From positions 2,042,746 to 2,106,745 of the forward strand of contig KV748194.1 in assembly GCA_001692895.1 (NCBI GenBank): 64,000 bases of DNA, read 5' to 3'. Of this stretch, positions 1,956-55,367 are shown piece after piece (the first letter of the stretch is position 1; the number at the start of each line of letters is the position of its first letter). Under the pieces are notes generated by a model. The model was not told where the DNA came from. It made no database searches and saw only the letters and a list, made by a program, of their open reading frames with translations. Both the position numbers and the translations under genes were made by a program. Source of the stretch: Cenococcum geophilum 1.58 (lineage: Eukaryota > Ascomycota > Dothideomycetes > Gloniales > Gloniaceae).

Positions 1956-2726
1956 TGCTTATGGATATATTAGTCCTAGTATAGGAAACCCCTTTTACGG
2001 ACTTATGGCGTAAAGAGATTAACAGACTACTTAAAAAGGGCGTCTTTGCGGTTATAACGGAAAAAGATATTCCGTAAGGCGTCCGTATATTTAACTTACG
2101 CTTTATTAACGAGATTAAGCACCCTAGTACTAATAAAGTTTTTAAGAAATTAAGGCTTGTTATATAAGCTTATAACGACTAAAGAAAGGACCTAGTCCTT
2201 ACGCAATCGCCTATAATTTAATAAGTTAGTTAACGGATTATACTTATACTTATACCTAGACTACAGTAAACTAAACCTATAGCCCTCTACTTATGGGACA
2301 TCTTATAAGCCTATATATAGTTAAATACCTACCTAAGTAGGGATATCTTTATATAACCACCCTATAAGCTTAACCTATAACTAGGAATAATTTTATAGGT
2401 TATAAAACCTCTTTACAGGGTACTAGAAGCTAGAAACTACTAGTTTAAGATATACTACCAGCACTATATTAGTAAACTTAAAATGGAATAGTTGACCTAT
2501 AACCCCTGCCTTCTATATAGCCTATTAAACGGCCTTAGTATTGTTAGACTCTAAATAGACGATACCCTATTCCTAGTAGACTAGACCTTTACGGACGCTA
2601 AAGAAACTAAACTATAAAAGGCTAAGTTCTTAGTAAAGTTATAAGAGTAGTTAACTAAGCAGAATCTAATTAAGTTTAATAGAGGCCTAATTATATAAAA
2701 GGGCAACCTAATTAAGCTAACTTAGA

Positions 2727-4818
2727 TCTTAGAAAGGGTAATAGCGGAACGCATGGCAGACACGGCAGAGGAACACGCCCTACTACTACAAAGCCAAATG
2801 GGGGCAAGAAAGAACCGCTCAACACTATCAGCACTTACGCTACTCGCTGCCACCATTAAATCTGTATGGGCGATGCGAAAGGACTTCGTAGTATTAATGC
2901 TTAGCCTAGACATCAGTAGTGCCTACGATAATATACCCCACGAGCGTCTCCTACATATCCTTAGGGCAAAGGGCTTCTTAGAATGGATTATATAATTTGT
3001 CCAAGGGTTTATAGGCCAGAAAGAAACATTACTAGTCTTTAGCGGATACTAAAGCCCCCCTATTGCAGTAGCAACAGGAATACCATAAGGATCACCCCTC
3101 TCGCCTATACTCTTCCTTTTCTTTATAAGCAACCTACTTAACTCCTTTAAGAAAGGGGCGACCTAGGGGATAGGCTTTATTAATAATATAAACCTAATTA
3201 TATACGGGCTAATAGCTGCAGAGAATTATAGAACACTAGAGAAAGCCTATAATACTTATATAGAATAGGCAAAACGTTATAGAGTCTAATTCTCACTAGA
3301 GAAATACTAGCTAATCTATTTTATAAGAAAACGCAACTAATCTACAGATCTTTAGCATATAATTTATATCTAAGGCTTTAGGGGTCAACTAGTTTAGGGC
3401 CTAAGGGTATTAGGAGTATGGGTAGACAGTAAGCTCCGGTAGAGCGCATATGCGGCGTAAGCGGCCCGTAAAGGCTAAGCATAGTTTATTGCTTTATTTA
3501 GGATTGTCAACTCTATATAGGGTCTATGCTTCTAGAGGTTACGCCTACTATATACAGCAGTCGTCCGGCCAACCATAATATATAAATCCAGTATTTGGGC
3601 CATTAGAGAAACTAAGAAGGGCCCCCCTAAATTACTCCTTAAACTACTTTAAAAGGTCTAGACAGCCTGCCTCTAAAGTATTATAGGCGGGTATAAGCGA
3701 ACGGCTACAGCACTGCTTAAGAAGGAATCTAATATTCCCCCCCTATAGTTATATATTAAAGCCGCTGTAATATAAAGGACATAAAATAAACGTAACTCTA
3801 ATGTTATAAAGTATATTAAGACACGCCTAAGTAAACTATAGAGGGACCTTAGGGTGCCCTATAGGAGAATAAACCAATAACCCTAAAGTAGGGAAGAGAT
3901 ATTAAAGAAACAGGTAAAGAAAGCAGAAGAAAAATAGTGCCGCTTTAGGGCCCAGGCCCATATAGAGGAGGAAGGGAGACGCGTAAGAGGTTAGTAAAGA
4001 TAATAGTAAGATAGAGAAAGGAGCTAAAGTAAAACACGTAAGAACGCTAGGAAACCATCTACTGTAATATAATACTAGTTAGACCAACGCTAGAGAGGTA
4101 AATAGGAGTTAAAGGTATAGAGGCTAACTTAGGTAAGACGAACCTAAGCTATAGCATAGTTAACGCTATAGGGGGTAAATACCTAAGGGCTCCGAGAAGG
4201 CCTAATAAAGGCAGAAAATATAATAGTAATACTCTTAAGAACAGGAATAATAGGACTAAAAGATTGGCTTTACTGGGTAGGTGTCTTAGTAGGTAGCCCA
4301 AGATGCGAATATGGCTGGCCAAGACAGACACTAAAACATATAATACTGCTATGCCCCCTACGCACCAATTAAGAAATAATACTCTTAGTAGCTAGCATAG
4401 AGAACTATAATACACTACTCTTAATATAAAAAGGCCTTAAGGCGGTTACCTAGTNGCTTATTAGTTAAAATATNCTAAATNAGTTCNNNGTTNNAAGGGA
4501 AATNNTAATANAAGGNAAGGGGGCNAGNAGNAGNTNCCCCCTAGTAACTCTATAGTAGTAGAGTAATAGTTTATAATACTAGCGCGTCCGTAGGCTTGTT
4601 ACGGCAGNAGTAGTTCCTAAGGAGGTTAAATAGTAAGGTAGTAGAGCACTATAGGCGACTTATAGGCGCTAAGTAGGCGAGTCCTAAAAGGCGGGGAGAT
4701 AGATTACGGGGTTTTCTCATTTTTCTTAAATAGAGTTTTCTCCCTATATGTAAATAAGGAGTAGTCCGCATAGGCCCAATAGGGATCCGAATCGGACGTT
4801 AAGCAATAAATTATTATT
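2727..4818 (+). mobile_element. 5'-truncated Tad1-like LINE, copy A
   Basis: The 5' break lies inside the reverse transcriptase domain and the 3' end carries a TTA-rich tail. A 17-bp target-site duplication flanks it (2710-2726 and 4819-4835), and the copia frame continues on both sides. The copy shares its body and 3' end with the LINE copies at 46637-52186 and 55368-61012. The RT catalytic FVDD-type motif reads INNI near 3180, which is explained by G-to-A change in two Asp codons. Several N bases occur near 4455-4610. 5' truncation with a long TSD is the usual product of target-primed reverse transcription. Confidence 0.85.
2753..2995 (+). pseudogene. Reverse transcriptase fragment of LINE copy A
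   Basis: An 80-codon stretch of RT remains open. It contains the palm region with LSLDISSAYDNIPHERL, in which the first catalytic Asp is preserved, and upstream QSQMGARKNRS, a conserved LINE RT block. Downstream, TAG and TAA codons interrupt the frame (for example just after 2995), and the second catalytic motif is mutated. This is the best-preserved RT segment in the left block. It is a domain remnant and not a gene. Confidence 0.75.
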
Positions 4819-5662
4819 AATTAAGCTAACTTAGAAACGCTAAGCTTAAAACCTAAAGCCCGTTATAGTAAAGCCTACGGACCTCACCAGCTCCCGCGGA
4901 GAGACCTATAAAACTATAAATATAAAGGACTAATACATTGCATAGCGTGTAAGAGGCGCCTATATTACTACAGTCTGTTAACCCAAATCTGCCTATAATT
5001 TATCCTTTACAGTCTAGGTAGTAGATCTATAAAAAGAAAATATTAAGCAGCTTAATAAGCGCATTTAGTAGCAAATTAATAATATAGCAAGGGGACTTAC
5101 TTTTATACCACTAGACCTAAGTTCCCTTAGCTTACTAGCATTTATAAACGCCTCCTTTACTAATAACAGGGACCTATTATCGCAAATTGGCTTCGTAATT
5201 ATACTTATAGACCGTAATTAGGACGCAAATATACTATACTAGTCTTTAATTAAGTATAAACGAGTAACCCGCAGTATACTAGCCTCTAAACTATATACAC
5301 TAGCTTATGGCTTTAATATAGCAGCCGTAATTAAATTAACGGTCTAGAAGATTCTATGACTAAAGTAATTACCCCTAGTTTTATATACTAATTTAAAGTC
5401 CCTTTACAACTGCCTAGTTAAACTAGGTACGATATAAGAGAAGAGGCTTATAGTCGACCTAATATGCTTATATTAGGCCTATAAATAATATAAAATTGCG
5501 GAGGTTAAATAAATTAGCGGCGGAAATAACCTAGTAGACGCTATAACTAAGGTAAAGCTGTGTTAAGCCCTTAAAACCCTAATTAATATAAATAAGCTTA
5601 ACCTAAAAGTTATAGAATAGGTAGAACGGGACTAACGGAGTACCTACGGTACGCCTACAGCC

Positions 5663-19787: not shown

Positions 19788-20168
19788 ACCATACGAGTCA
19801 GCCGCCCACACGAGTCGCCATAAAATTCACTAACTTTAATCCACTATAATTTTACTAACTACTAACTACTAAAAATATTTAAATAAAATTTAAAAAATAA
19901 GGACTTATATATAAAACGAGCTTATTTATAAAAAAAAAACTTATATATATTTTATATTTTAAATTAAATATCAAGTTTTATAATAGTATTATTTTATTTT
20001 AATACTTATTTATAAATTTAATAACTATTTAAATTAATAATATTATAAATACTATATTTGTAAGTTTATATTTAAACTTAAATTTAAATATTTTAATAGT
20101 GAAGTTATAATAGATTAAAGTTAGTAGATTTTAGTGGCTCACTCGCTTGGATGGCTGACTCGTATGGG
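19788..20168. mobile_element. AT-rich foldback MITE, TA target, between two genes
   Basis: The left end accatacgagtcagcc and the right end ggctgactcgtatggg form inverted repeats that continue for about 75 bp (ctaactttaat and attaaagttag pair). A TA dinucleotide lies on each side (19786-19787, 20169-20170), as in Tc1/mariner-type MITEs. The 230-bp core is almost pure A/T and contains no gene. It is the only strongly AT-rich patch inside the gene island. Confidence 0.75.
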
Positions 20169-20809
20169 TAGCTAAGATATTATCCCTTAGCCAGCAACAA
20201 GCCTCTTACGCCTTCATCTCATCAAAACCTGCGCCTAATTCTATCGATTCGGAAGGCCCCGCTGACCCCACCCAACATACCCACCTAATAGCCACCAATA
20301 GGCTGGAGAACGGTCTTAAACAGAGCTTTGATTACATCGGATGACCTGCTTCATGGCTTAAGCCCTGATGTTACGAACCCTGGTTGTGGAAATTTGCTAT
20401 AATGGCACCGGTGCTAAATCTTAGAATCTCCATGCAAGTTTATCTCCGAGAAAGAGATCCCTCAAGCGGAGTATACTGTTCTTGCAGTTGCAAAAGACGT
20501 CATATTTTATCTTCATCTCTGTGAAGCTTGACATTCATCAAGTTGTCGTTCTATCTTCAATAATGAGCTATGCTTTGCTTTTGTCCTTTCCTCAAATAAA
20601 AACCTTTTGTAAGCTAAAATACAGGAAACTGAAACCTACAGCCAACCCTTGGTCTGGCTATGCGCCTTTCGTCCGTTAATTAAGTAAGCAATGATGAACC
20701 CCTGCGTCAGACGGGAGGGCTTGAATAAGAGTGAGGTAACCTCGTATGTATACCTTACGTCGCCCGCCTAAGTCCCTCTCATGTCATGGTCTGTCCCACT
20801 GTCTCAAAC

Positions 20810-22288: not shown

Positions 22289-22467
22289 TCCTCAATTTCC
22301 AGACTTTTAGTAACTAGCGGTGTAATTTGTGCAGGCTAATCTAGTGTCATACCAATCTCCACTCTGACACGAACCCTAAAGTTACTCAAATAGTCGATGT
22401 GCTTCGCATTGCAGCAAAGTTCTAACATCCCAGGAATTCTAAAAATAAAAATAAAAGCTTAAAAATT

Positions 22468-23255
22468 TTAATTTCCGACGCTACTACCACCGCTACCCTC
22501 AAAAAATGGCCCAAAACTCCCCTCCCCGCCCCGATGATGCATCCAGTGCTTCCTCGCCCCTCCGCCCCACTCCTTCAACAGCTCCAGCCCCGAATGGATC
22601 TCGTCTATCAGCCACACGAAGACGGGCACGAAGGCGGGCCGCGTTAGCACGTGACTCCCGTTGACATTCACGCTGAAGTTCGCGAGCAGCTGGTTCGTGG
22701 CCTGCGGGTGCAGCTGCGCGTGGTGCGGGGTGTGGAGGCTGCGGAGGGGCGGGATGGTGTGCAGGGCGAGGTGGAAGAGGAAGAAGAGGGTGCCGCAGAG
22801 GGCGAGGCTGGTGACGAGCTCGAGGACGAGCCGCCGGCTGCTAGACGCGTAGGGCGGGAGCGCGCGGCGGGTTTGGAGCGGCGAGGAGAGGGCCGTGTTG
22901 TGCAGAGTTGGGATGAGGGACGTGCGGTGGTGCTTGCTGGAGGGAGGGGTCGTAGTTCCCGGAGAGGAGCATGNTGTCAAGGGGGACGTTGGCGAATTTT
23001 TGATCGTGGTGAGATTAGGGAAGAGCGGGGTGATGTAGGTTAGTTGCGGCGTGACGGGCGTCGCATGCCTCGTGGACAGTCTCGAGAGGTGTGATAGTCT
23101 TTGATTCATGGAGAAGACGCTATTCCGGGTGGTTTACAAACATAAATGTGATGTATAGCTCTATGATGGCATAGCAAAAGACAGTCCATATTGTCTCGAA
23201 AGTGGACCAACAATAGAATAAATTGTTGCTTAGCACGTCCCATAGGGAATCTAGA
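22468..23255 (-). pseudogene. Fatty-acid hydroxylase/sterol desaturase-family gene, broken
   Basis: The open 3' part (22468-23109) encodes three histidine boxes of the di-iron membrane hydroxylases: HLALH (HxxxH, residues 113-117), HTPHH (HxxHH, 126-130) and HWMHH (HxxHH, 188-192). A membrane segment (LVTSLALCGTLFFLF) precedes the first box. Upstream the frame shifts near 22945: one frame holds FANVPLD and MLLSGNYDP, the next SSKHHRTSLIP. Further upstream another hydrophobic frame ends in NHPE then TAG (near 23130), plausibly a former Trp codon. One N lies at 22974. Spacing between boxes is shorter than I expect for the family. Such enzymes hydroxylate lipids in the ER. I infer a decayed gene; unrecognised introns or base errors are the alternative. 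Confidence 0.55.
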
Positions 23256-23675
23256 GCTGGCTGATAGAGAGATGGGAAAGAGTAAGGGAGAGACTTCCAA
23301 GAACAAGACGAGCTTTGAGAACGGAAAAAGAACTCGCACATTTGCTCTGCAACGCCATGGCACACCCCTAATACTGTGAGACGTCGACGAGCGGCCAATG
23401 GCTGGTGGTGACGCTTTCCATCTTGCATGGCCTCGGACCCGATGTTCGGAGCACGAAAATGGGAAAGCGTGCTTGAATGTCACATAAGCCCGTCAAGCAC
23501 AAAAAATATTATATATGATAATTTTCTTATCGACTGCAACTCTCTTGGTGATGACCAGCTCCCAGCACAAAAACTACAAGCTTGGGAGGAGCACGGAGCT
23601 CCGAGTGGGGCCCAAATCTCCGAGAGCTCTGTGCCGAGAATGTCAATCTTGTCTAACCATGATTAGCAACAAGCT

Positions 23676-24270
23676 TAGGGAGTGTTCGGTTGCGATCTGA
23701 GGTTGCTCCGTGCTTTCAACTAGTACTCAATCTGATCTGAAGCCGAGTGTTCGGTTGAGCGCTCTAGAAAGCCTTAAGCCTTGTATCGCGCACGCCGCCA
23801 TTGATTTGAAGCTACTCAAGCAGTTTTCTAAACACCTCCGGCCGCATCCGCGTCATGTTATAGAGCCTCCGCTCACGCCCACGGAGCAACTACGTCGTCC
23901 ACACCATCCGCGTCACATATCAGTGTGTTGAGTACGAACGCCGCCCGGTTGGATGAGAATTGCAAAGGAAAGAATTAGGAGAAGGACGTCGTATAGGGCC
24001 TGCAGCTGCAGCTGCAATATCGTCGGTGGGAGGGGTGGTGGGGGCATACTGGGTAGGGTGGACGATTGGGCGCATGCACAAGCAGAGCTCCAGATTCAAT
24101 CTGGAGCTGAAACTGAGGGCTCCTTATTGATCTGACACCAAGATCTTCAGTTCAACTACTATACATGGTATGGCGTGCGGATTTGACGCGCTTGCCGATA
24201 GAGGAGCTTCAGATTGGAAAGTTGCCGTATACGCCGAACACCCGCTTCTAAACCCAGAACCGAACACTTA
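23676..24270. repeat. Possible TIR element in the intergenic region
   Basis: The left side reads ttagggagtgttcggttg and the right side ccgaacactta, so an 11-12 bp inverted match (agtgttcggtt) frames about 595 bp. A second agtgttcggttg lies inside at about 23741. The interior has a small inverted repeat (gctccagattcaatctggagc near 24089) and a cagctgcagctg run. No clear target duplication was found. A hAT-like MITE is possible. The remaining DNA between 23.26 and 24.40 kb shows no gene. Confidence 0.3.
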
Positions 24271-24403
24271 TCTTTACGGGTTTATTTGTACGGCCTTGAG
24301 CGTATATATATACACAGTTATTTATTTTCCTAACCTTAAATATCCCCTTCACTTTCTATCCGAACTTCAGCTCCATCTCCTCTCAAGAGGATTTGGTATC
24401 AAC

Positions 24404-25153
24404 ATGCTTAACATTAACCTTCGCCCGTTGAAAGACATCTTCTTCGACCCTCTATGTCATTACACACCCTACTTCATAAAGCCCCTCCACGTTACTTTGC
24501 TTGCTTTTGTATGCGGCATCCAAGCATGTATTTACGCATATCTTTCCAATCTCCCAAAGGCTCTCCTTTTCTAGATTCTCAACCGCTCCCTGGATTGCCT
24601 GGATGGAGCACTTGCCCGTTCGCGGAAGCAAGTCTCTAACCTCGGAGGATTCCTTGACCTTCTGGGAGACTTTATTGTGTATTCCATGATTCCAATCTGT
24701 TCGGATCACGGTAGGGGGGGTTTTGGGTTCAATCGATTTCTTCTTCTCTTCTCTATCCTACAGGTGGAATTTGGTAGACCTCCTGAGCTCGCTTAGCCCA
24801 CGTGATTAACCCAATTGGTTACAAGCAACCGTGTCTACATTGCGAAACCTTATTCAGACACAATCTGTTGTGCGCTTGATCAATCGGATATATCTTCACT
24901 CCCCGTCCGCGGATGCCACAGTACCCGGCTATGGGTAGCGGTCGCTTTACTCGAAGCATCCTTTCACATTAGTAACTTTGTACTTTTCTATATCGCGGCC
25001 ATTCTCGAGAAAACAAAAGCAAGTAACACCGAGAAACAGATAAAGGAATTAACCAGTGTTATGATGAAACCGGCTCTAGTCGGGGGCTTTGAAAGTGGCT
25101 TATTCTTCACGGCCATGCTGGCATATCATCAGTACACGAAAGAGCTCTCATAA
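24404..25153 (+). pseudogene. CDP-alcohol phosphatidyltransferase-like gene with a premature TAG
   Basis: The family signature DGx2ARx8Gx3Dx3D is complete: the first Asp is at 24602-24604 and the last at 24668-24670 (DGALAR, then GFLDLLGD). It is preceded in the same frame by a hydrophobic N-terminus starting MLNINLRPLKD at 24404. A TAG at 24572-24574 interrupts that frame just before ILNRSLDCLDG, where a Trp (TGG) would fit. After IVYSMIPI one or two introns probably follow (a gtaggg donor is near 24709). The last exon, open to 25153, reads VALLEASFHISNFVLFY and LTSVMMKPALV, typical of fungal members. The family transfers a phosphatidyl group from CDP-diacylglycerol (or phosphocholine/ethanolamine from CDP-alcohols) in membranes. 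With the TAG, only 56 residues would be made. Confidence 0.72.
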
Positions 25154-25292
25154 GTCATAGCTAAACTTATATCAATTGGCATAGTCAAAAGAGTGTTGTG
25201 GCTTGGCCAGTTCTCAGCCAAGGAAAGAAAGAAAATTTTCATAGGACGCTTTTTGTTCGCCTCACCAAGGCCTCGCCCGCCAATCGCTCAGT

Positions 25293-25997
25293 TCAGACAA
25301 TTACACTCTCAAGCTTATCGATCTGCTGTTTCCCTTCCAAACTAAACCCCTCCAAAAATCTCTCGCCATAACTCCCAACGAAATTGTCATATGTCGTTTC
25401 CGGCTTCGTTCTACAGAGCCTGCACATAGTCTCCCTCACATACTCCTTCAAATTGGCGCGCGGAAACTCAGCCGCAATGCCATCAAACTCCGCCTTGGAA
25501 ATCGTACCCTCCGGCGCCACGGTTGGTCCGGCGAGTTCCGCAAAAATCCCGAGCGAAGTGAATGCAACCTCGGGCTGCTTGAACCTCGCGATGGACGGCG
25601 TGGTATGCAGAGCAATGGCATCCCAGACGAGTTGAAGCCGGTGGGCATCCCAGCCCTGAGATCCTTCAACTTCGCGCTGGATGAAGTCCCGAGCGGCGTT
25701 GGCGCCGTCGACTTCGAAGCGTTTGTCTGTGGAAACGACGTCTCCGGTAATGGCCCACCCGAGGTCGTGTAGGAGGTTGGCAATTGCGAAGGCTTCGAGG
25801 TCGATGGATGCTGTCATCGAGGTCGGGAGGTGGGAGATGATTGCCATGCCTGTGAGCCAGGAACGGACGACATGGTGGTAACCTTGATCATCCATGAGCG
25901 AACGGGCATATGCTAGGGCTTTGGTTATAAGAGGAGTGTCGGGAACGGTGATGCCGGCGATTATGCGGGTTGAGAGGGCAGGAGTAGTTTGTGCCAT
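25293..25997 (-). CDS. HD-domain protein, cyanamide-hydratase-like
   Basis: This is an uninterrupted 234-codon gene. Metal-binding HD-domain positions are visible: His41/His42 (GYHHVVRSW), the His77-Asp78 pair (NLLHDLGW), His131 (AIALHTTPS) and nearby Asp126 (VWDAIALH). The order and the phrase LEAFAIANLLHDLGW match the fungal HD proteins annotated as cyanamide hydratase or related hydrolases. The activity here (hydration of cyanamide to urea, or another metal-dependent hydrolysis) cannot be read from sequence. There is no signal peptide or membrane segment, so cytosolic. It lies tail-to-tail with the phosphatidyltransferase (140 bp between stops) and head-to-head with the P450 across 826 bp. 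Confidence 0.85.
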   Translation of the reverse strand: MAQTTPALSTRIIAGITVPDTPLITKALAYARSLMDDQGYHHVVRSWLTGMAIISHLPTSMTASIDLEAFAIANLLHDLGWAITGDVVSTDKRFEVDGANAARDFIQREVEGSQGWDAHRLQLVWDAIALHTTPSIARFKQPEVAFTSLGIFAELAGPTVAPEGTISKAEFDGIAAEFPRANLKEYVRETMCRLCRTKPETTYDNFVGSYGERFLEGFSLEGKQQIDKLESVIV

Positions 25998-26823
25998 TGT
26001 AGGAATTGCGGTATTAGTCTCTGATCGTCAATAGCGAGTCTAAGTTTGCTGAGGAGAATCGAATATAAATCTCAAACATCTTATATATAGTCGTATCATG
26101 CGCATATTCAAGGTTCCGACTTGCGGGTCTGTTCCGGCAGCGGATTTATCCCGCTCACGATTACTCGCTGTGGGTAATGCGAGGATTTCAGAGCCCAGTG
26201 TGCAGTACAGGCTCCAATTCCAAATGTTTGTTGAATCACGGATTCTGATTGGCCCAAACTAAAGAGATGTGCGAATACAGTGGGCTCCATCACGTGCTAA
26301 GCCGGTTTTACCATTTCCAGTAAACGCAGCTGCATATTCATAAGCAAGAGGATGCTTTATAAACGGATAGTATGTCTATGACCGTTTTTGGGCAAAGTGG
26401 AAAAGGGTTTATTTCTTTAATGCCTTTATACAATGGCGTTCAGCCCATTGTTACAGTAATGACAGCCTTAAAACTTGAGGGGAATAAATACCGTACACAA
26501 TCCAAAATCCTAAATTCAGAAATTATTGATAGCTGAATTTAAGTTCACGCAACACCAACTCATCAGCTGAGGACTTGGTGCGTTTGATCTGAGCTAGCGG
26601 ATCAAGTGCATAGAGAAGGCTTCGGCTGAATTCCGCGTGCGGCTTGCGCATAAATGGGGAAATAGTTCTCCCGAGACGTAGACCCAATGTATGGTCAAAG
26701 CAGCAAGCGGCGAAGATAAGGTTTTCCTATGCAACTGAAGTGGTGGCCCAACCCCACTATATCCCGCAATATCTATTAGATACCGTCTCACCATCTTGAT
26801 ACGTCTGTAGTCATCTTCTGAAC
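25998..26823. promoter_or_regulatory. Shared upstream region of the divergent HD-protein and P450 genes
   Basis: No gene was found in these 826 bp. The two flanking genes are transcribed away from each other, so both promoters must lie here. A TATA-like run (cttatatatag) occurs near 26081, about 90 bp upstream of the HD-protein start. I recognise no transcription-factor operator with confidence. Confidence 0.45.
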
Positions 26824-28547
26824 ATGTTTCTCTCCTCGTGGATCACATCCACACCAATTTCCATTTTGAAGACCGAGCTATTCGTGTGCTTTGCCTTCAA
26901 ATGGCTGGGTTACGAATGGTCGTGGACATCAATGGTAATTGTCTATATCCTGGGAAACCTTGTCTCCAACCTCGAACCCCTATTTCAAATTCGCGCTGAC
27001 CCACGAGAACCCCCTTTAATCCCACACAGAGGTATACCTTTCATCGGACATATCATTGGGATGTTCTGGAATGGCGCGAAGTACTTTCAGCTTGTCAAGT
27101 TAGTTTCACTGTACACTCTATAGGAGATAAGCCGGATCTAATAGCTTTATAGTGAGAAAACAAACCATCCAATCTACACTCTCCGAACGCTGACCGCGCG
27201 CACCATCATTGTAACCTCGCCCCCCCTCGTAGGCATCGTGCAGCGCTCCTCTAAATCCTTATCTTTCTATTCCGTGATTCTAGAGGTCACGAAGCGCCTC
27301 ATCGCCTTCGATGAGCCAACCATGCACATTGTGCATGACAACGCTAATCGTGAAAACGGAGACCACGGGCTGATGCCCGAAACGCATGGTATGACAGCTG
27401 GTGTGTAGGTCCCGGACCCATCCTCAGCTCCATCAGTTCTATCCAACTCGAAAGCTTCACCAATATGCTAGGCCAGCCAGAGTTCCTTGGAGACGGCGCC
27501 CGCACTAGCCTTATGGAGTTCGTGAAGAATATCTTTACAACTTCGAATGCTCTCGCCATATACGGTCCAGAGAACCCGCTCGCCGTGCATCCGGATCTCG
27601 TCAATGACTTTTGGAGTTACGAGAATGGCATGGTACCGCTCCTTGCCGACATCTGTCCCGCCATCACTGCCCGCAAGCCGTATCTAGCCCGTGAAAAGTT
27701 GCTCAAGGGCCTCCAAGAGTTCGTAGAAACTGAACGGTATAAGAAAGCCTCGACGCTAATCCAACAGCGTGTCTCCATCAACTTGAAACACGGTTTGACA
27801 ACAAAGATGGCCGGGAACGCAGAGCTGATCATGCTCTTCGGGATTTTAGGAAACGCCGTCCCAACATTCTGGCTGCTAGCAAACATATTCAGCCGGCCAG
27901 CACTGCTTGCAGGGCTGCGATAGGAAGCCGAAAAGGCCGTCGTCAGGAAAGCTCAAGAGGCAATCGTCAGCGTCAACATCCTCAAAACATCGTGCCCTCT
28001 GCTCGTCTCAACATACCGTGAGACCCTCCGTACAATCGCCAACCTCTCCTCCATCCGCTACGTGCTCGAAGACACACTGATCGCGGACAAATATCTCCTC
28101 AAAAAGAACTCGATCGTGCAAATCGCGTCGGGCATCATCCACGTTGACGAAAAGGTCTGGGGCGCCGACGCAGCGACATTCAATCCGCGCCGCTTCATCA
28201 GCGGCTCCTCGAACAATATCGAGCAGTTCTCTACAGGCTCGGGGGCTGCAGGCGAGCAGACGGCAACGCAGCTGCCTAAGAATGTTCCGTCGGCTGCGTA
28301 CAGGGCGTTTGGCGGGGGTGGTGTGATTTGCCCCGGTCGGCATTTCGCTCAGAGCGAAATCGTGGGCTTTACGGCGCTGATGCTTCTCGCGTTTGATGTT
28401 ACGATGGAGGATGGTGGCGTGATTGAGCTGCCGGAGAAGGACGATCGTCGCATCCCCCTGAGTGTGATGAAACCGGCAAAAGATGTTAGAGTAAGGATCA
28501 GAAGGCGGGAGGCGTCTGAATGGATGAGGTGGGGACTGGAGCTTTGA
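26824..28547 (+). pseudogene. Cytochrome P450 (CYP7/CYP8-like fungal class), frameshifted and with a premature stop
   Basis: Exon 1 (26824-27098) encodes an N-terminal hydrophobic anchor and the proline-rich PLIPHRGIPFIGH segment. A 54-bp intron (27099-27152, gttagt...tatag) joins YFQLV to EKTNHPIYTLRTL. The frame then reaches MTAGV and hits TAG at 27406; it continues one base out of register as GPGPILSSISS, which points to a one-base loss. A second TAG at 27921 stands in LR-stop-EAEKAVV, where CAG would fit. Downstream, the ExxR motif (YRETLR, near 28015) and the heme loop FGGGGVICPGRHF (Cys codon at 28329) are perfect. The I-helix region NAVPTFWLL fits oxysterol-hydroxylase-like P450s. Substrate unknown. 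The gene is probably inactive; a 20-bp GT-AG stretch at the frameshift is too short for a normal intron. Confidence 0.82.
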
Positions 28548-29241
28548 GAATGATGTGAGGGATGAGGGACGGTGAATGTGCGCACCTTGGACATGTAAAA
28601 TATCCCGCTGAAGTAAGTATATTTCTAAAGTTATATTTCGTTAATGCAGTGAGAATATCTTAGAATTGCTTTGTCATGAGGCTATTTCGGGGTGTATTTG
28701 CCTAATGGGTTGGCAGAGGGGGGTTTTGCTGTGTGGTTGTAGGAGCTTAAAAATGTATTGGGAAGGAGAATACGTGGGAGGATGTCTTTCAGTTGTATTG
28801 AGAGCAAGTCTCTATATCTATACTACTGCTGTTTTAAACCGGAGGTCTTTCAGCTATTTTTTTCCAGAGGGCCCAAAAGCAACCACCGTAGAATCGTGGA
28901 CATACAACAGTGATGGGTCAGCCTGTTTTATATGAAGATGAAACTGAATTCGAGATTGGAAATGGATTGTGCAGATGTGGTGCTTGAATTCTCGAGATTG
29001 ATATAAATTTGTGCTGAATCTTGTGCCTATTCCTAGCAATAGGACCAATGAAGGACACTTCAGGTTTCAGTTCTGCTGTCTGATGGTTCTTGTGAGTTTG
29101 TCGTGCGTGGTGGGTGCAAGACTCGGCATAGAGTAGAATCCGATGGGCTTGACCTTGGAGCAGGCTACACAATTATAGATCTTGGCATTGGAGCCTTGAA
29201 GAACGACTTCTTTGCTTCAGGAATAAATCTTGTACTGCACA
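28548..29241. other. Intergenic region between convergent genes
   Basis: This lies between the 3' ends of the P450 (+) and the seven-TM gene (-). No conserved gene, repeat or RNA was recognised. Small open frames here have no domain content. Confidence 0.6.
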
Positions 29242-30811
29242 TCACTCGAAGGGATTGAATGTTTGCGGCGGAGGACCCTCGCGAATAGATTGCCTAGTGT
29301 CAAGCGAATATTTCAGGAGGATCCAGTGGGATCTCGATTGCCGCCAGCCCCGGGCAATACCATTGACATTATCTCTAATCTCTTTTTGCCCAAATTCAGC
29401 AAAGCATGTTGTCCGTGGAGCTTCTGACCAAGCAGGGGCATGAGGATTGCCATGAATTGCCTGTGGAGACGTGACCTCCCGGGTGCTATGCTCGGGGCTG
29501 GCATATTCAGATATCTCGTTTCTGCTCTGAATCTTAACATCCATGCCGCGAGAAATCTTGATACCAGCAGTATGAGGTGATGTAGAAGTAATTTTATCCG
29601 GGTCGATAGGAGGCTGGGGAGGCTCGCTAGTGTATCCTTGGCGGCTGGATATGTTGTGAACGCATCCGGGGCTGTAGCCACTACGCTGGCTAGAGATGTT
29701 GAGGTATCGTCGGAAGAAGACCTTTAATGCTGGGGCAGATGCGCATACTACAGCTAGGTCGGCTTCTACTACAGTCCATGTCAAGACTGGTAAACTAGCC
29801 CAGGTGATGTCGTAAGTGTAGTAATAAACACGGATGGCATAGTATATACGCATTATGCTAGAAATGCAGGTCCTGTTATTGACCTATTTATCAGCGGCCA
29901 TGAGCAAAAGATTACCAGCGGAGAGGTACTTACAGCAATCCGACCCCAAATATTCCCACAACAGCCACCTTTTGGCGCTGGGGAAGCTGAAGATTCCAAA
30001 CGAGCATTACAGGCAATGCGAGTGCGATTATGTCCTGAAGAATACTGATCGCCGCTGCGGTAAGGATTTCTGCCGCTTCATCCGTGCAAGTGAACCTGTG
30101 ACTTAAGGCCCAGATTGGGTCTACGAGATGCCAGAATGCCGAGATAGGTCGACAAGTCAGGAAGAGAAGCAGGACAAATATAACTCCATAAGCAACGACA
30201 AAGGCAATACTACCCCAAGTACAGTAAATGAAGGTCTTTGTGATGGAGCCGGCAGTCATTCGTCTATAGAAGCAGAGTATCGAAACTTTTGTAGAACATG
30301 TACTGAGTATGTATAAGAGACTAATGACCAAGACAATCTGAACGTAGGTTAGCACGAATCATGTAAGGAGACTTGCCACCGTTATCTCACCTGGCGACTC
30401 TGAACGACCAATTCACGAGTTTGGTCCCATACGTGAAGGTTCAATCCATAAATGCGCACACCTCATTGCAGTCAGCTCGCTATCTATCTTATGTAACTCA
30501 CGAAGTATCTTACCAAGACATATTGCCAGATTAAGTCCGGTCAAGGGTAACTGTCAAGGTCAGATTTGACTTTTTGTGCCTAGGGATAGCGTCCAACGAA
30601 CCATTGCCAGCGCTATGAGCAAATCATCGAATCCTGCATCATGTGTCACGGTGAGTCGAGCCCACAACCGGGCGCAAAAGACTAAAAAGGTGATAAAGAA
30701 TAGCACAATAAGTATCACAGGAACCGTCCAATCCCGCTGTACAGGATTAATATGGTTTGGTCGCGGCCAGGATTCAATCACCGATAGTGGTGGACGAAGG
30801 CCTCCGGGCAT
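29242..30811 (-). CDS. Seven-transmembrane Pth11-like/rhodopsin-fold fungal membrane protein
   Basis: Five exons on the minus strand join in frame: 30811-30602, 30550-30514, 30461-30391, 30337-29934 and 29857-29242 (1338 nt, 445 aa). Every intron (51, 52, 53 and 76 bp) begins GT and ends AG. The spliced protein has seven hydrophobic segments: VPVILIVLFFITFLVF, then DDLLIALAMLPLTG, IVLVISLLYILSTCS, a segment around GSIAFVVAYGVIFVLL, ILTAAAISILQDIIALALP, VAVVGIFGVGLL and DITWASLPVLTWTVV. The signatures HDAGFDDLL, ILCFYRRM and CASAPALKVFFRRY are typical of the fungal rhodopsin-domain family. The hydrophilic C-terminal tail is about 130 aa. Pth11-like members act as plasma-membrane sensors; the ligand is unknown. 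No disabling mutation was seen. Confidence 0.88.
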
Positions 30812-31463
30812 ATTGTAGCGCTTTGCTTGGTGTTGTGGATAGGTGGAAAACGAATTGTGAACAACATACGAAAGAGCATGTCCGCAGGGCGCGAGGAAAT
30901 TGACATGTGCTTATATGCCTCTACCTCGTGCCCTGTTACTGCTATCCTCGGGATAGTTTTCTTTAGGTTGGCTGTACGGGGAACGTCGTGATCTGGTATG
31001 GAGATATCCCCGCATATTACTAGGAAGAGCATATTGGTAGTGCCGATGCTGCGTAGCTCTAACGGTGATAGAACCAAGTTCATATGGAGTATAGATATCT
31101 GTCCAAGGAAGCCAATTGTTCTTTTGGGGAGCTCGTCTATTGATAACGCCGATCTATGGCGTATGCCTGAATTTTAGGCATACAGCCTTGTGCACGGCCA
31201 GCTCCCACCCCTCCTTTCTAGCAAAATTCAAATTCGTTAAGCGCATTCAATTTACTCGGGCCTCGGGCAGTAGGGATTTTATCCCTTACACGCGGCCCGT
31301 GCTACAACTAGCCAACCGGCGTCCACGAACTCCTCCGAGTAGTTCTAACATTCTAATGAAGTCCTATCTTTTAATAAAATTAGCCTCTTTAAAGTAAGAT
31401 TTTTAGTAGGCCTTATACTTATAGCACTTAGCTTTATTTAAAGTCTTTTTAATATAATAGGCC
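30812..31463. other. Upstream region of the seven-TM gene and transition to repeats
   Basis: No gene is supported. A hairpin (gtatgcct, 7-nt loop, aggcatac) lies near 31158-31181. From about 31.36 kb the composition becomes AT-rich, marking the edge of the repeat block. Confidence 0.5.
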
Positions 31464-31465
31464 TA

Positions 31466-31596
31466 TCCCTTCGACCGCTGAGTTGCGCCCAGCGTTATCG
31501 ATAAGGAACTAGCCAATTATATGTACTTCTGTGTAGCTGCCATCACGGTATAGCTGTCCGTGCGGCCTTGGCGTTGGACGCCAGCGGTCGAAGGGA
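31466..31596. mobile_element. 131-bp GC-rich MITE, family TCCCTT, copy 1
   Basis: The ends are tcccttcgaccgctg and its reverse complement cagcggtcgaaggga, flanked by TA on each side (31464-31465, 31597-31598). A subterminal gttatcgataag block is shared with the MITE at 37650-37961. The sequence is GC-balanced in AT-rich surroundings. The TA target fits a Tc1/mariner or pogo parent. Confidence 0.8.
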
Positions 31597-31598
31597 TA

Positions 31599-32046
31599 GT
31601 TAAACTCTTATTGTGAGGCAACAGGCTCTACGCCACCCAAGCCAAACAAACCCACAAAAGGTAAGCGAGTATCTGGCTCAATTGGCGCCGCGTAGAACAA
31701 TGTATATAATCTCACTCGGCGAGCTTGGCGCCTGACACTTATTTACGCTTATATTTACCTATTTTATTATCTAATTATCATACCTTCTATACGAAGATTA
31801 TATGATTTTATACACCGTTTTTTAGGGTATTTTATAAGGCTGGCCAGGCCTTTATACACTAGTGCGTTTATTAGAGCCTAAAGCCTAAAGCTTAAATATA
31901 ACGCACGGTATATATAGAGACGTTATCTTTATCTTTATACAGCCTGTCAGACCTCTAGTACCCCCCCCCCCACCTTTTGTATGCGCGCGCTAATTTCGCT
32001 ACATCTGCAGCTAAATTAGTACGTAGAGCTAGCAGGAAGGGGTGTA
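31599..32046. other. AT-rich repeat DNA without a gene
   Basis: Composition shifts from mixed to AT-rich. Runs of C occur near 31960. A second base-balanced patch near 31660-31750 has ggcgcc at both ends (near 31684 and 31733) but no convincing TIR or TSD. No coding frame was recognised. Confidence 0.4.
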
Positions 32047-32491: not shown

Positions 32492-33430
32492 ATATTAAGG
32501 AGGCTGGTACCCAGCCTCCCTACGCTATTAGGTTAAATCTTAACACTTCTACTTAAACTAATTAATGTAGGTCAATAGCTCCCGGTTAAACTAGCGGCCC
32601 TAATATAGCTCCCACTTAATCCTTATACGGATTAGATAGATAAACATTAATAGGACCTCCTTTAGGCCTCGTTAAACCTTAAAACTCTTAAAAAATAGAG
32701 AAAGAGTGCCTCTATAAAGCCCCCTACGAAGTAGATCTAATCCTTCCCGTCCTTAACTAGTAATATTTATACGTTCTTAACCCTAACGCGTTCCTAAAAG
32801 TAACAAATTTGTCTTTTAGTAGGGCTTTAGTAAGCCCATCTACTACCTGTTTTTTAGTAGGGATATATTATAGGTCCACGTCTCCTTTAGCCTGTCTTTC
32901 CCGTACGTAGTAGTGTTAAATTGTAATATACTTTGTTCTAGAGTAGAACTAGGGGTTTTTAGCTAGAGCTATGGCGCCTTAGTTGTCTCCGTAGATAATA
33001 GTCGCTATTAGCTCTTCCTCTAACTTAAGTAGCTCCGCTAGAAGGTTCCTAAGCCAGATAGCTTCCTTTATAGCTTGTGTTTCTCCTATATATTCTGCCT
33101 TATAGGAGGATAATATAATAACTAGCTGCCTTTTTAATAATTAGCTAATTGCTCTACTTCCAATATTAAAGATATAGCCTATAGTAAAGCGTTTTATTAT
33201 AATGTCTCTTACCTAGTCTAAGTTAGTATATCTAACTAGTTCTTTTAAGGAACTAGAGAAGTTTAGTTCTAGATTAATAGTACCTTAAAGGTATTAGAAA
33301 ATTCGTTATACAGCTTTAATATAAGGTTTTTTTTAAATTAGCTATATAACGGCTGTAAACTAATACCGCGTATATAATATCTAGTCTAGTCCCTAGTATA
33401 GCGTATATTAGTAACCTAATTACCCTAGCG

Positions 33431-33542
33431 GGGCTTCATGAAATCGGCCTCTGCACCTCTACGCGGTGGAGCCCGGGAACCTAGCAGTACTATTAATATT
33501 CCGTTAGGATCGTGTTAATAGACTACCAGAGCAAACGCAGAG
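33431..33542 (+). ncRNA. HDV-like self-cleaving ribozyme, retroposon copy 1
   Basis: P1 pairs GGGCTTC (33431-33437) with GGAGCCC (33468-33474), with one G-U pair. P2 pairs CTCTGC (33449-33454) with GCAGAG (33537-33542), perfect. P3 pairs ACC with GGT across the loop TCTACGC (33458-33464). GG for P1.1 is at 33475-33476. P4 is a long arm, CTAGCAGT-A-CTATTAA (33481-33496) against TTAATAG-ACTACCAG (33515-33529); its two mismatches vanish if TpA is restored to TpG. J4/2 holds CAAA from 33532, matching CNRA. The order and lengths agree with the HDV double pseudoknot and parallel the fold at 7136-7220, with near-identical L3 loops. The predicted cut is just 5' of 33431, the insertion junction. Confidence 0.8.
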
Positions 33543-34438
33543 ACGTCCATACGGCTACACACCACTAGCGCTACAACGGGTGATCGCGAAGAAAGAAGTT
33601 TCTGTTAGGAGGGTAAGCCCTAACAAGGCTTCAGGAACACAACTAACTTATCTTTATATACGGTCGACCTGCTTAAATTACAGCATCTAAATCGGCGTCC
33701 TCCTTTTACATAGCATGGCACGCCATACTATACGACCCTATATAGTATATACGTACCCTTGCAGGCTAAAGCCCGCGATAAGCCTCTTTATCCACCTACC
33801 TTCCAAAAGCCTCTTATCTACTACCTTTTAAGGCCTCTTATTTACCCGCCTTTATTATTACCTAACAGCTTAGACTTACCGCACGCGGTATATATCCTCC
33901 TTTATATTATAAAGGACCTAGGTTAGGGCCCTAGGAGAAGACACCTAGCACGAATTACTATTCTATTATTTTGGTTTTAAAAAAAGGTTATATAGGACTA
34001 GATGTAAATGCATTATATAGGAGGGTAGTGGATTATACTAGAAGGTATAATAATAATATTGGATTATGCTGTAAGTAGGGAAGCTATAAGTAGTATACGT
34101 ATATACATACAGGGCGGAGTAGGGGAAGGGCAGGTATATAATTCCACATAGGTAATAATAGATAGGGAAAGTGGTTTAAAAGGTAGATAGGGTAAGATAG
34201 GTATTTAAGACACCTTCCTTAGGGGTCTCTAAGTAGTAACCTGACGGTGTTTTTCCCCCTATTAATATAGTACGAATACTATCTAGAAGTATTACCTCTT
34301 ACGTTTCCCTTGGGGGTTTTTTGTTTACCCAAAAAATGGGTTTTTCTTAGTGTATATATTAAGTTTTTACTATAGGAATTAGTCTGCGTGGACCCATTAG
34401 GGGGACCGAGTCGGACGGTAAATTAAATCTATTATTAT
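33431..34438 (+). mobile_element. 1-kb non-coding retroposon (SINE-like), copy 1
   Basis: A 14-bp duplication, taattaccctagcg, flanks it (33417-33430, 34439-34452), and the copia RNase H/RT sequence continues across. It starts at GGGC, the first base of an HDV-like ribozyme fold, and ends in an attattatt tail. Its last ~75-100 bp resemble the LINE 3' end (tagtctgcgtggaccca here, tagtccgcgtgggccca there). No open frame of note is present. About 1 kb is long for a tRNA-type SINE and no clear pol III box was identified. I infer mobilisation by the resident LINE. A second copy lies at 53431-54434. Confidence 0.85.
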
Positions 34439-37400
34439 TAATTACCCTAGCGTACTAGTTTTAGTCTATTTCTATAGCTATAAAGCCTTCCTTAAGGGGT
34501 TTTAGTTTATTAGTATCTATAAGAGTTATAACTAGTTTATACTCCTATATATTAAGTTCCCGTAGTACTTTTTTAATATACCCTTTTTAGTAAAGTTAAA
34601 GGGAGCGGGTTGGTTAGTCTCTGTGTATTAATATTCCTAGGTAATAGGTATAAGGGCCTAGGTTGGTTATCTGGAATTATTTACTAAGGGCGTCTTTAAT
34701 TTTTTATATTTCGCCCTTTTTAGGGCCTACTATTAGTAGGTTATCTACGTAGACTGCGAGGTAGATATAACCTTTTGCGAATATACTAAGATTAGATAAA
34801 AGGGGTAAGAAGCTTAAACCTTTTAGAAAGAGAGCAAGAGTATAATACTAGATTTATAGTAATTATTTAAGTCCGTAGAGTGCCTTATTTAGTTAGTAGA
34901 CTCTTTTTATCTTGTTTCTAGCCCTATTAGTTACTTAACATATATTTCTTCGTTAATTGCTCTATATAGGAAGGCTATCTTAATATCCATTTGTTTAATT
35001 TAAGGGTTAAAAGCTACGGTAATAGCAAAGATTACTTTATAGCTTATTAGTTTAACTACTAATGCGAATATCTTATTACAGTCTACGCCTTTTTATTATT
35101 TAAATCCGCGTATAACCCAGCGGGCTTTATACCGTAGTATTTTACTATTTAGTTCTCTTTTAAGTTTATAAACCTATTTCCCTCGTAAGACGCGTCTATT
35201 TAGAGGGGGGTCTACTAGAATCTATATAACATTATTAAGTAGGGACTTATATTTATCCTTTATGGCTATAAGCTATTATTTCCATAAGATATTAGCCCTA
35301 GCTTATAGCAGTATTTTTAGTTTAAAAGGTTCCGTTACAGTTTTTACTATTTTTAGAAGTGCTATAACAAAAATATACCTTCTTATTAAATTTTTAGAGT
35401 ATTAAACTTTAGTTACTCTTATTAATATTTATAGCTTAGGGTGGCTTTAAAGTGTCTTACTGGGTACTAAGTATATATTCTCTATTTCGGACGGTGGTTC
35501 CCTACTATTAGGGTTAGTGTTAATTTAGTTTAATAATTTACCCATTTATAGGTCTAATTTATTGTTTCTTTCTAGCGTTCTACTACTAGTAGTAGTTAAG
35601 GGGCTTACACCGCCCTCCCTTTTGGGTAATATCTCGCTAGTATTTTCCCCTTTAAAGGGTTTAGAAGGTTTAAGGTTCTATAGCTAAGCTAGTAACTTAT
35701 TATCTACTAGATTTCTATCTTCCCTATTAATAGGGTGTAAATCTTCTATATAAGGCACTCTTAGTTATTTAGAAGCCCTACTAGGACCTATAGGGTATTT
35801 AGCTGGTTACTTATTTAACTATTTTTATATCTCCCCTTTAGTACTTAGGGCGCCTAAATAGGGTCTTTTTTTATAAATATAATATTTGTAGAGTGGGTAA
35901 TTATACTATTTTCTATTAGGATATAATAGTTCTAACTTTCTTTAAAGCTAATAAGTTTGCATAGTATTGTTTTTATATTAATAAGTTTTCGCCGTTTCTT
36001 TTTAGGTTTTAGTACTAAGTAGTTATATCCTAGTACTTAGATAAAGGATAAGTCTGGCTTCTTACCATACTAGGCTTTATAAGGTGTTTTGCCAATATAA
36101 GTACTAGGGCTATAGTTACGGATTTTTATAATAGAGATAAGTATCTTTAGCTACTATTTCTTATATAGATTTGCGTTTAGCAGTATAGGGTAAATTTTAT
36201 CTATTAGGATTCTATTTAAGCATTTAGCGGCTCTATTTTATTAGTATTGCTCTATAGTTATAACTTTAATATTAATTCCTCTATCTACGTAGAAGATATA
36301 GAATTTATTTAAATGGTTTTTTTCTCTCTAGTTAAGTCTAACGTGTTAATAGCGGCGATTAGGTTAGAAGTATTTTTTTTATATAAAATGTTAAAAATAG
36401 CAGAAGAACTCGCTTCTCTTAGTAATAAAGTAGGCTTTAGCTATTTGCATATAGTTATTAAGAAACATAACCTAGTATTAGCTTTGATTATAGCCTATAA
36501 TAGGGAAAGAGCCAGTAATATTAGTATAGATAAATTTAAGTAGGTAAGTTCCTAGTTTAAACTTCCTTTTATATAGTTTTTCTTTTATTTATCCTTAGAC
36601 GTATAGGATATATATATATAGTTATCTAGAGGCGAGTTTATTCCAGTTAATATTATTTTAAATCTTTATATATTTTACTCCCTTAAGTAGCCTATTCTTT
36701 TATACCAGATTTTATACTATATAGTAGTAACTATATAGGCGGTTAGTCCTAGGGGTAGTTCTAACTATTAGATATTAAAAGTATATAGTTTATAGAGCAA
36801 GGATGCTTTAAATTTTGTTCCTCTTACAGTAATAGTTATATTATTATTATCGTTATTAAAACCTATTTTTACTTCCTTTGCCTATAGTTTTAATATAAAG
36901 ATTAAATTAATACCCCTATTTAGGATATAGAGAGTATTGTATAGGTATAGGTTTACGTTTTTATTAATAATAATATAGGATAGTTTTATAGTCCTAATTA
37001 CTTCTAGTATTACCCGCGCTTCTATAAAGCCCCTAAGTAGTTTACTAGCGTAGCTTTATAGTTTTATAAAGTCTTTTTTTTAGTAGCTAAAGTAATAGAA
37101 GCAGCTAAAGTTAAGAAAGAAGGTTTCTGTAAGGTTTATATCTATATTAGCTGCTATAAGGTAAATAGCTTTTATGCTATCTAATATAGAATAGCTTAGT
37201 CCTACTATTAGTTTAATTTCGTTTTCTTTTATAGATTTATTATTCTTGCCCTTAGGTTTCTTATTTTCCTTATTATAGGAGTTACTTTATCTCCTTTTTT
37301 TCCCGTACTTTTCCTTATAATACTTCTGTCTAAAGCCTAGGTGTAAGTACTAGCATTTATCTTTTATATAGTAAGGTTTATAGTAGTATTTGCAACCCTT

Positions 37401-53430: not shown

Positions 53431-53542
53431 GGGCTTTATAAAATCGGCCTTTATACCTCTACGCGGTAAAGCCCGGGAACCTAGTAGTACTATTAATGTT
53501 CCGTTAGGATTGTGTTAATAAACTACCAGAGCAAACGCAGAG
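53431..53542 (+). ncRNA. HDV-like ribozyme, retroposon copy 2 (partly RIP-damaged)
   Basis: P1 is GGGCTTT (53431-53437) with AAAGCCC (53468-53474), seven canonical pairs. It differs from copy 1 on both strands while keeping pairing. P3 ACC/GGT and loop TCTACGC are unchanged, as is the CAAA of J4/2. The P2 5' strand reads CTTTAT against GCAGAG, losing pairs through C-to-T and G-to-A changes. P4 is retained with the same two mismatches plus a further one. This copy is probably weaker or inactive, but it fixes the same 5' end. Confidence 0.72.
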
Positions 53543-54434
53543 ACGTCCGTACGGCTGCGCACCGCTAGCACTGCAACGGGTAATCGCGAAGAAAGAAGTT
53601 TTTATTAGGAGGGTAAGCCCTAATAAGGCCTTAGGAACACGACTAACTTGTCTTTACATATAGTCAACCTACTTAAATTACGGCATCTAAATCGGCGTCC
53701 TTCTTCTACATAGTATGGTACACTATGCTATATGACCCTATATAGTATATACGTACGCCTTATAGGCTAAAGCCCGCGATAAGCCTCTTTATCCACTTAC
53801 CTTCCGAAAGCCTCTTATCTATTACCTTTTAAGGCCTCTTATTTACCCGCCTTTATTATTACCTAATAGCTTAGACCTGCCGCACGCGGTATATATCCTC
53901 CTTTATATTATAAAAGACCTAAGTTAGGGCCCTAGGAAAAGACACCTAGCACTAATTACTGTCCCGTTATTTTAGTTTTAAAAGAAGGTTATATAGGACT
54001 GGATATAAATACATTATATAGAAGGGCAGTGGATTATACTAGAAGGTATAATAATAAGATTAGATTATACTGTAAGTAGGGAAGCTATAAGTAGTATATA
54101 TATATATATATAGGGCGGAGTAGGGGAAGGGTAGGTATATAATTCCACATAGGTAACAATAGATAAGGAAAGTGGTTTAAAAGGCAGATAGAGCAAAACA
54201 GGCATTTAAGATACCTTCCTTAGGGGTCTCTAAGTAGTAACCTAACGGTGTTTTCCCCCCTATTAATGTAGTATGAATGCTATCTAGAAGTACTACCTCT
54301 TACGTTTCCCTTAGGGGTTTTTTATTTACCTAAAAAATGGGTTTTTCTCAGTATATATATTGAGTTTTTACCATAGGAATTAGTCTGCGTAGACCCATTA
54401 GGGGGACCGGGTCGGACGGTAAATTAAATTTATT
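53431..54434 (+). mobile_element. 1-kb non-coding retroposon (SINE-like), copy 2
   Basis: The 14-bp TSD attataaacggcct flanks it (53417-53430, 54435-54448) inside LINE copy D. Both ends align with copy 1 (33431-34438), and most differences are C/T or G/A. It starts at the same GGGC and ends in the same ATT-rich tail with the LINE-like 3' motif tcggacgg. Two independent insertions with the same 5' base show a full-length unit of about 1005 bp. Confidence 0.87.
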
Positions 54435-55367
54435 ATTATAAACGGCCTTATATATAATATAAGGCTTTATAACTATAGACTATACCTAAAATAATACTAC
54501 CGCTATATATAATAGGGACACACCTAATCCACATACGTAGTATAGGTATGCTGCGGCTATTATATAGGTCCTTATAATATAAAACACTACTTAAATTAAG
54601 ACTAAATAAAATATATAAACTGCTACTAAAGTATATATAAGGCGTAGAAGAGAGAAGACTATATTAAATATAGAAGATGGAAGGTAAGGGCTTAACAGCT
54701 ACGGGAATAACTATATACTAGGTTATATAAATAGAAATAATAGGAAATAAGCTAGGGGGCATAGGTACCTTCCTAGCGTTTCCTACCTTTAATACTAAGG
54801 GGCTAGGCTAGCTATCCCAAGCCTTAATAGGCTAGAAGTGACGCTATATAATATTACTAGACCGTATAGAAATATAAGGGTTATAGAAAATATAAGGGAG
54901 AGAACGCCCTATAAAAAGACCCTTATAGATAGCTATAGCAAGCTTAAAACTAAGGTAGTTAAGAATTAGACTTAACGCGGTAAATATAATATTTATAGCT
55001 AACTCTTAAAGGGTATATAGCTAACTAGTAAGAATAGGGAAGAAACTAGAGATAATAATAGACTTAGATATAGAAGCGCTAGTAAGAATATAAAATATAG
55101 GAATAAAAAGCTCTATATAAAATAAGTAGTAACTAAGGTATAGATATAAGAGATAGAAGTTTTAAATATTTTAGAGAAAGTAGAAATAGAAGAAGTAAGG
55201 AATAATAGAGAGGCGAAGGACCCTTATTAGGGGTTCGCTACCTATTTATTATATAGTATAACTATAGCAATATAAACTACTGTTTTGTAAGGCCCTTATT
55301 AGATAGTCTAGACCTAGAGAAATATTATATCCTTACTATATAAGAGCTATACTATAATACCTATATA

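Follow-up and report, generated by a model that had tools for sequence, protein, structure and literature searches.

The window analysed here is a 64-kb stretch of fungal DNA that holds two copies of a short retroposon, a mutated LINE copy and a gene-bearing island (Table 1). The island, at about 18000-32000, is without a RIP signature, and its genes by Pfam include a cytochrome P450 (27924-28544) and, on the minus strand, an HD-domain protein (25293-26024). The LINE adjoins copia-like coding traces upstream, the copia reading having been made by eye, and a comparison within the window shows its stretch 4754-4823 to be similar to the tail of the retroposon at E 3e-5 (74% over 73 nt). The target-site duplication (TSD) TAATTACCCTAGCG, found directly at both flanks (33417-33430 and 34439-34452), defines the first retroposon copy as 33431-34438. 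The second copy has the same orientation, another TSD (ATTATAAACGGCCT) and a start exactly 20,000 bases beyond that of the first.

An HDV-like fold can be read directly from the sequence at the 5' end of the first copy. The first-pass annotation had proposed five helices (P1, P2, P3, P1.1 and P4) in nested double-pseudoknot order, and reading 33431-33544 bore this out. The helix coordinates of the window copy were mapped through an alignment of copies (A1, described below) and its structure string. P1 consists of seven pairs, GGGCTTC/GGAGCCC, one of them G-U. The 7-nt L3 loop was found as annotated, reading TCTACGC at 33458-33464, where the majority of copies read TCCACGC. One pair of P1.1 is U.G in the window copy. 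The CAAA motif ascribed to J4/2 is contained in AGCAAAC, with the candidate catalytic C at the position named. The first base of P1, G 33431, had been described as the first base past the 14-bp TSD, and the duplication does end at 33430. The helix order, L3 and the C of J4/2 place the fold in the HDV-like structural class, the helices of which are defined in PMC4908430 (consulted in part), with a predicted cleavage site at G1. In the second copy of the window, P1 retains seven pairs and P2 is broken.

Table 1. Coordinates of the retroposon copies, the HDV-like fold and the LINE in the window.
Feature	Position	Strand	Basis or detail
Mutated (RIP) LINE copy	2726..4823	+	RVT_1 piece 2726-2992, 35.5 bits
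5' target-site duplication, 14 bp	33417..33430	+	Repeat comparison in the window
Full-length subfamily A retroposon, 1008 bp	33431..34438	+	TSD flush at both ends
HDV-like ribozyme (P1, P2, P3, P1.1, P4, J4/2)	33431..33544	+	Direct reading, alignment A1, descriptor
P1, 5' strand GGGCTTC	33431..33437	+	Pairs with 33468-33474; predicted cleavage site directly before 33431
P2, 5' strand	33447..33454	+	Pairs with 33537-33544
P3 hairpin	33455..33467	+	Strands 33455-33457/33465-33467
P1, 3' strand, and P1.1 strand (GG)	33468..33476	+	P1.1 is 33459-33460/33475-33476
P4 hairpin, long	about 33481..33529	+	Two A/C mismatches in the window copy
J4/2, AGCAAAC	33530..33536	+	Candidate catalytic C at 33532
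P2, 3' strand	33537..33544	+	8 positions with 33447-33454, one C.A mismatch
LINE-like 3' tail with a TTA-rich microsatellite at its end	34355..34438 (start approximate)	+	Tail of sister copy L002 against LINE
3' target-site duplication, 14 bp	34439..34452	+	Same sequence as the 5' duplication
Second retroposon copy	53431..54439	+	90% identical, TSD ATTATAAACGGCCT

Copies in the genome and their boundaries

The genome searched comprises 177.2 Mb in 162 contigs. The element query gave at least 58 BLAST matches, 40 of 434 candidates having been scored, and the ribozyme core with up to three mismatches occurs at 140 places, compared with 0 for a reversed-pattern control. A single pattern scan of IMG/VR gave no match. 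The copies fall into at least three subfamilies: A of ∼1008 bp, B of ∼945 bp, and C, which is longer and of which the 5' end alone was read in all loci except L089. Fourteen A copies were counted as reaching both ends. Variable-sequence TSDs, a LINE-like 3' tail and the lack of a reverse transcriptase (RT) gene identify the element as a non-autonomous non-LTR retroposon; the longest sense ATG frame is 18-128 aa in 50 copies.

Both ends were compared in 56 distinct A and B copies (L001-L014, L031-L050 and L052-L080, with duplicate places removed and group C left out). Full-length copies account for 51 of the 56, a share that is inflated for B because the search for B copies used a 5'-end query. 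L015-L020 were omitted; they derive from about four additional A copies, of which two are interrupted by insertions and two are without a 5' end. Direct repeats of at least 9 nt flank 47 of the 51 full-length copies, and 7.4% of mismatched flank pairs reach that length. The annotation implied that further copies would start at the same base, and this held at the first G of P1 for 45 of the 47, the repeat stopping directly before that G or including it (offset 0 in 39 copies, +1 in 6, -1 in 1 and -7 in 1). The four full-length copies with repeats below 9 nt are L005, L046, L067 and L077, and the first two also differ in their 5' start.

Subfamily C was represented by eight short pieces (L090-L097) and L089. 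The first P1 strand is GGGCTCC or GGGCTTC in seven of the eight pieces and altered in the exception, L093, as it is in L089; L097 is without the 3' strand of P2. The middle of L089 was considered as a LINE ORF1 and this was ruled out, since it is a separate repeat widespread in the genome. The repeat is inserted at 496-699 of this copy, and ∼204 bp of it are matched at most places (40 of 843 candidates scored). On contig C56 (1121516-1126769), a subfamily A copy is split by ∼5.25 kb, a length equal to that of the full LINE described below, which suggests a LINE insertion into this copy.

Chance expectation, conservation and covariance models

The strict descriptor specified a P1 of 6-7 pairs starting with G, a P2 of 5, a P3 of 3 and L3 as TYYNYGN, together with GG, AG or GA after P1 and C-N-A-A before P2'. 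Applied to both strands of the window, it gave a single start, at 33431. A set of 1500 order-1 Markov sequences, each of 64 kb, contained 14 starts (1 in 60 in a first run), so that ∼0.02 are expected per window on both strands; this descriptor is neither blind nor calibrated, having been drawn up after inspection of the window copy and without trial on known ribozymes. Across loci L001-L097 (595,908 bases with both strands counted), 53 starts were found, each at the 5' end of a copy, against ∼0.09 expected. They represent 41 of the 63 distinct copies with the 5' part available (12 of 16 in A, 24 of 38 in B and 5 of 9 in C). The second copy in the window is missed by the strict descriptor.

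Conservation was assessed in two alignments, A1 (30 rows) and A2 (53 rows), both of which omit L005 and L046, with their different 5' ends, and L047-L050. A2 omits some further copies, and its C rows stop inside P2. The strands of P3, the letters T, A, C and G of L3, and the P1.1 base at position 46 are invariant in all 53 copies. Position 45 is G in 47 of 53, and on the other side of P1.1 the two C residues are kept in 52 and 48 of 53. The candidate catalytic C of J4/2 is retained in 49 of the 53 aligned copies and lost in 4. The conserved core of the C copies is not independent evidence, because these copies were picked by the core pattern. Identity between an A copy (L002) and a B copy (L035) is 97% in the first 60-nt block and 90% in the second, drops to 30-60% in 121-720 and reaches 68-90% again in 721-1008; the ends are therefore the parts that have been kept.

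The named structure pairs in 90.4% of alignment cells, and in 32-42% after the partners are slid by 1-3 columns. Covariation is weak. Four pairs change on both sides, a count matched by 84 of 500 shuffles; the covariation score is matched by 14 of 500 and the pairing by 18 of 500. All 27 distinct A/B rows carry a C.A mismatch in P2, and 26 of the 27 have one in P4. Pairwise counts over the 14 A copies gave 6949 transitions and 222 transversions, a pattern of RIP type. RIP changes may have left the window copy inactive. Covariation was not counted as proof of structure, because double changes are few and RIP-type transitions can imitate compensation.

Rfam models gave no match in the window at gathering level, and at E ≤10 no HDV-type match fell at the ribozyme in the window copy, L002, L004, L035 or L054. 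A drz-agam-2-2 match at 34512-34609 (10.6 bits) lies downstream of the element and was taken as chance. Among five C copies, HDV_ribozyme (RF00094) matched L090 from end to end at 17.0 bits and E 9.5 (cut-off 50 bits), and drz-agam-1 (RF01787, cut-off 37) matched L096 (17.4 bits, E 1.2) and L090 (15.5 bits, E 3.7). These matches agree with the register of the hand-made fold. Among these five copies there were also weak matches to two unrelated Rfam families, one of them at the better E of 0.73.

In the whole genome, RF00094 gave no match and drz-agam-1 gave seven at E ≤10 (56 of 11111 candidates scored). Five of the seven are the element in register (C13:1403909, C44:25929, C27:162798, C65:546053 and C97:269773), the best of them, among the candidates scored, at 24.4 bits against the cut-off of 37. 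The top match of the genome, C37:292875, is unrelated; the match leaves out most of P3/L3, and none of the ribozyme copies could be aligned to the place. The drz-agam-1 search gives matches below the cut-off in 11 of 14 control genomes too, so the E-values alone mean little and the weight lies in where the matches fall. Because its scores lie under the gathering cut-offs, the element is not filed under RF00094 or RF01787. The covariance-model check suggested in the first-pass annotation, run on less mutated natural copies in place of a RIP-reverted consensus, gave sub-threshold matches in register at L090, L096 and the five genome places, none of which reached an Rfam gathering score.

Transcription, the LINE-like tail and explanations for the family

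All of the 50 copies examined have runs of five or more T upstream of their last 60 nt, which argues against Pol III transcribing the whole element. A consensus scan of the first 300 nt of four copies gave no B box under three mismatches; A-box-like stretches with one or two mismatches are present in the same four copies. No tRNA was found in the window. If a SINE is defined strictly by a Pol III promoter from a small RNA gene, the element is not a SINE according to this four-copy scan.

Contig C101 carries a LINE whose 3' end is matched by the tail of subfamily A (L002) at 83% over 84 nt (E 6e-17 at genome size) and by the B tail at 83% over 81 nt. At the same search setting, no match to this LINE tail was obtained with subfamily C (L089) or the window LINE. 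The LINE tail and the tails of A and B are predicted to form similar stem-loops, in which one pair is exchanged between LINE and retroposon (U-A and C-G); in the three tails folded, the predicted energies are ordinary compared to shuffles. The C101 LINE is 5.25 kb long and contains an RVT_1 domain in an 861-aa open frame. Its homology to 32 other places begins near position 624-632 of locus L098, ∼115 nt before the likely start of ORF1. The LINE tail pattern occurs at 101 places in the genome. It lies 5.2-7.4 kb downstream of 24 of the 33 LINE starts mapped by homology (5.22-5.29 kb in 18) and upstream of none.

A start of the C101 LINE at its 15-nt TSD was rejected, as other copies place the common start ∼155 nt further in. 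These ∼155 nt (L098 458-630, C101:33407-33580) seem to belong to another repeat, located at the LINE 5' end within the 15-nt TSD, and may have arisen by read-through or template jumping. Because the C101 copy might itself be truncated, the 5' end of a further LINE copy, on contig C14, was read. Both copies begin at the same AGCCGCAACAG..., and the sequences directly upstream differ; at C14 the 72 nt upstream are A/T-rich. A 12-nt repeat shared with the 3' flank, 24 nt before the C14 start, may be a TSD or chance. No ribozyme core is present upstream of these two LINE starts (72 nt at C14), and the relaxed descriptor found nothing in 851 nt around the C101 start. When the ribozyme cores (100 of 140 listed) were compared with the mapped LINE starts and the LINE tails (100 of 101 listed) at a limit of 12 kb, no core was found near a start, and none on the upstream side of a tail, on the same strand. 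The 3' end is thus common to the retroposon and the mapped LINE and the 5' end is not, for the one LINE family mapped (150 of 8909 RT candidates scored).

We consider it about 80% probable that the family consists of non-autonomous retroposons in which both ends are functional, an HDV-like self-cleaving head and a LINE-mimicking tail, and which are mobilised in trans after read-through transcription. Cleavage, read-through transcription and mobilisation in trans are the three steps that we infer from the sequence. A transcript from an upstream promoter would read into a copy, and the ribozyme would fold and cut directly before G1, giving the released RNA the 5' end of the element; the element RNA probably cuts itself free of host transcripts in this way. 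The LINE protein would then bind the 3' tail and nick a T/A-rich target, and the RNA would be copied by target-primed reverse transcription; a longer LINE probably copies the element. Through its compactness, the 5' fold may in addition shield the RNA and make complete copies more likely. In a wider formulation, to which we give even odds, the family would represent a class of retroposons that are without a promoter and carry a self-cleaving ribozyme where a SINE has its Pol III head. Such elements would be mobile only under read-through, a ribozyme-less LINE would copy the exact RNA, and at least three subfamilies would have kept the ribozyme and the tail region with the middle replaced.

The element could also be a SIDE of a ribozyme-carrying LINE, with a donor that is extinct or lies outside the LINEs found; cleavage would work in the same manner, and origin and partner would differ. 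This origin seems to us possible but rather unlikely. The route itself is known from NARTc/RIME, derived from L1Tc/ingi (PMC4035085, in part), and from the Drosophila R2 SIDEs (PMC3414825, in part). Our mapping covers one LINE family and two LINE 5' ends, with 100 of 140 cores listed and 150 of 8909 RT candidates scored, and a ribozyme of diverged sequence would be missed by the core pattern. However, the C101 and C14 LINEs share their start at AGCCGCAACAG and are preceded by differing sequences without the core, the relaxed descriptor is blank in the 851 nt around the C101 start, and the listed ribozyme cores are located away from mapped LINE starts and tails.

In a further explanation, the fold would cleave itself hardly or not at all; it would be kept for its stability, protecting the RNA or helping to complete the 5' junction, and a promoter would set the 5' end. 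HDV-like folds at the 5' end of the template improve insertion by the R2 protein, apparently via stability, and some R2 ribozymes cleave poorly in vitro (both in the consulted part of PMC11331408). However, the candidate catalytic C and the L3 residues have been retained along with the helices, the element begins exactly at the predicted cleavage site, and the scan of four copies gave no B box under three mismatches. We regard this explanation as improbable, and as less so than a coincidental likeness to HDV in a conserved 5' hairpin region without a catalytic fold. The latter, to which the sub-threshold Rfam scores, the weak matches in controls, the weak covariation and the conserved P2 and P4 mismatches could be taken to point, seems very unlikely in view of the descriptor statistics and the start position, of the five among seven genome matches of drz-agam-1 that fall on the element in register (56 of 11111 candidates scored), and of the loss of pairing on a shift of the partners by 1-3 columns (90% before, 32-42% after).

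Relation to known systems

SINEs with tRNA, 5S or 7SL heads are short and non-autonomous and have a LINE-related 3' tail. In the two-ended family favoured here, the ribozyme seems to take the place of their Pol III head. If cleavage is confirmed, the family would offer a natural system with many dispersed copies in organisms distant from flies and trypanosomes, and the ribozyme would be a transferable 5' module, serving a LINE that itself does without. The two proposed roles of HDV-like 5' ends, formation of the RNA 5' end and completion of LINE insertion, would become separable, and the many natural variants with mapped insertions would allow testing which changes kill mobility. The second of these roles is compatible with the first, and HDV-like 5' folds are described as helping R2 protein templates (PMC11331408, in part).

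The first-pass annotation was not aware of any such description for a short non-coding ascomycete element. This stands for fungi as far as our literature search extends, which found no such element reported in a fungus and had most subscription papers outside its coverage. The novelty is narrower in two other respects: HDV-like ribozymes have already been reported in fungi (PMC3774820, in part), and ribozyme-headed non-coding elements are known in flies and trypanosomatids.

The closest known systems are the R2/R1 hybrid SIDEs of Drosophila (PMC3414825) and the trypanosomatid elements NARTc and RIME (PMC4035085). The R2/R1 hybrid SIDEs are likewise non-autonomous, with an HDV-like 5' module and 14-bp TSDs, and their 3' end likewise comes from another LINE, the presumed source of the machinery; judged by eye, the published primers contain a ribozyme core that resembles that of the fungal element (PMC3414825, in part). 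They are located in rDNA and their ribozyme donor, R2, is known, whereas the fungal element is dispersed in the genome at T/A-rich insertion sites, with no donor found. NARTc, RIME and SIDER, which carry the Pr77 HDV-like ribozyme, are also short and ribozyme-headed. The trypanosomatid LINEs L1Tc and ingi share this 5' sequence, which there doubles as a promoter (PMC4035085, in part), unlike the fungal LINE, of which the two 5' ends read are without a ribozyme. The fungal fold differs from drz-agam-1 (RF01787) and the R2 ribozymes in scoring below the gathering cut-off, in its long P4 and in the mismatches in P2 and P4 of subfamilies A and B. It has the same helix order as both (class helices in the consulted part of PMC4908430), and its P3-L3 is nearly identical to that of drz-agam-1 in the Rfam alignment (ACCTCC-CG-GGT).
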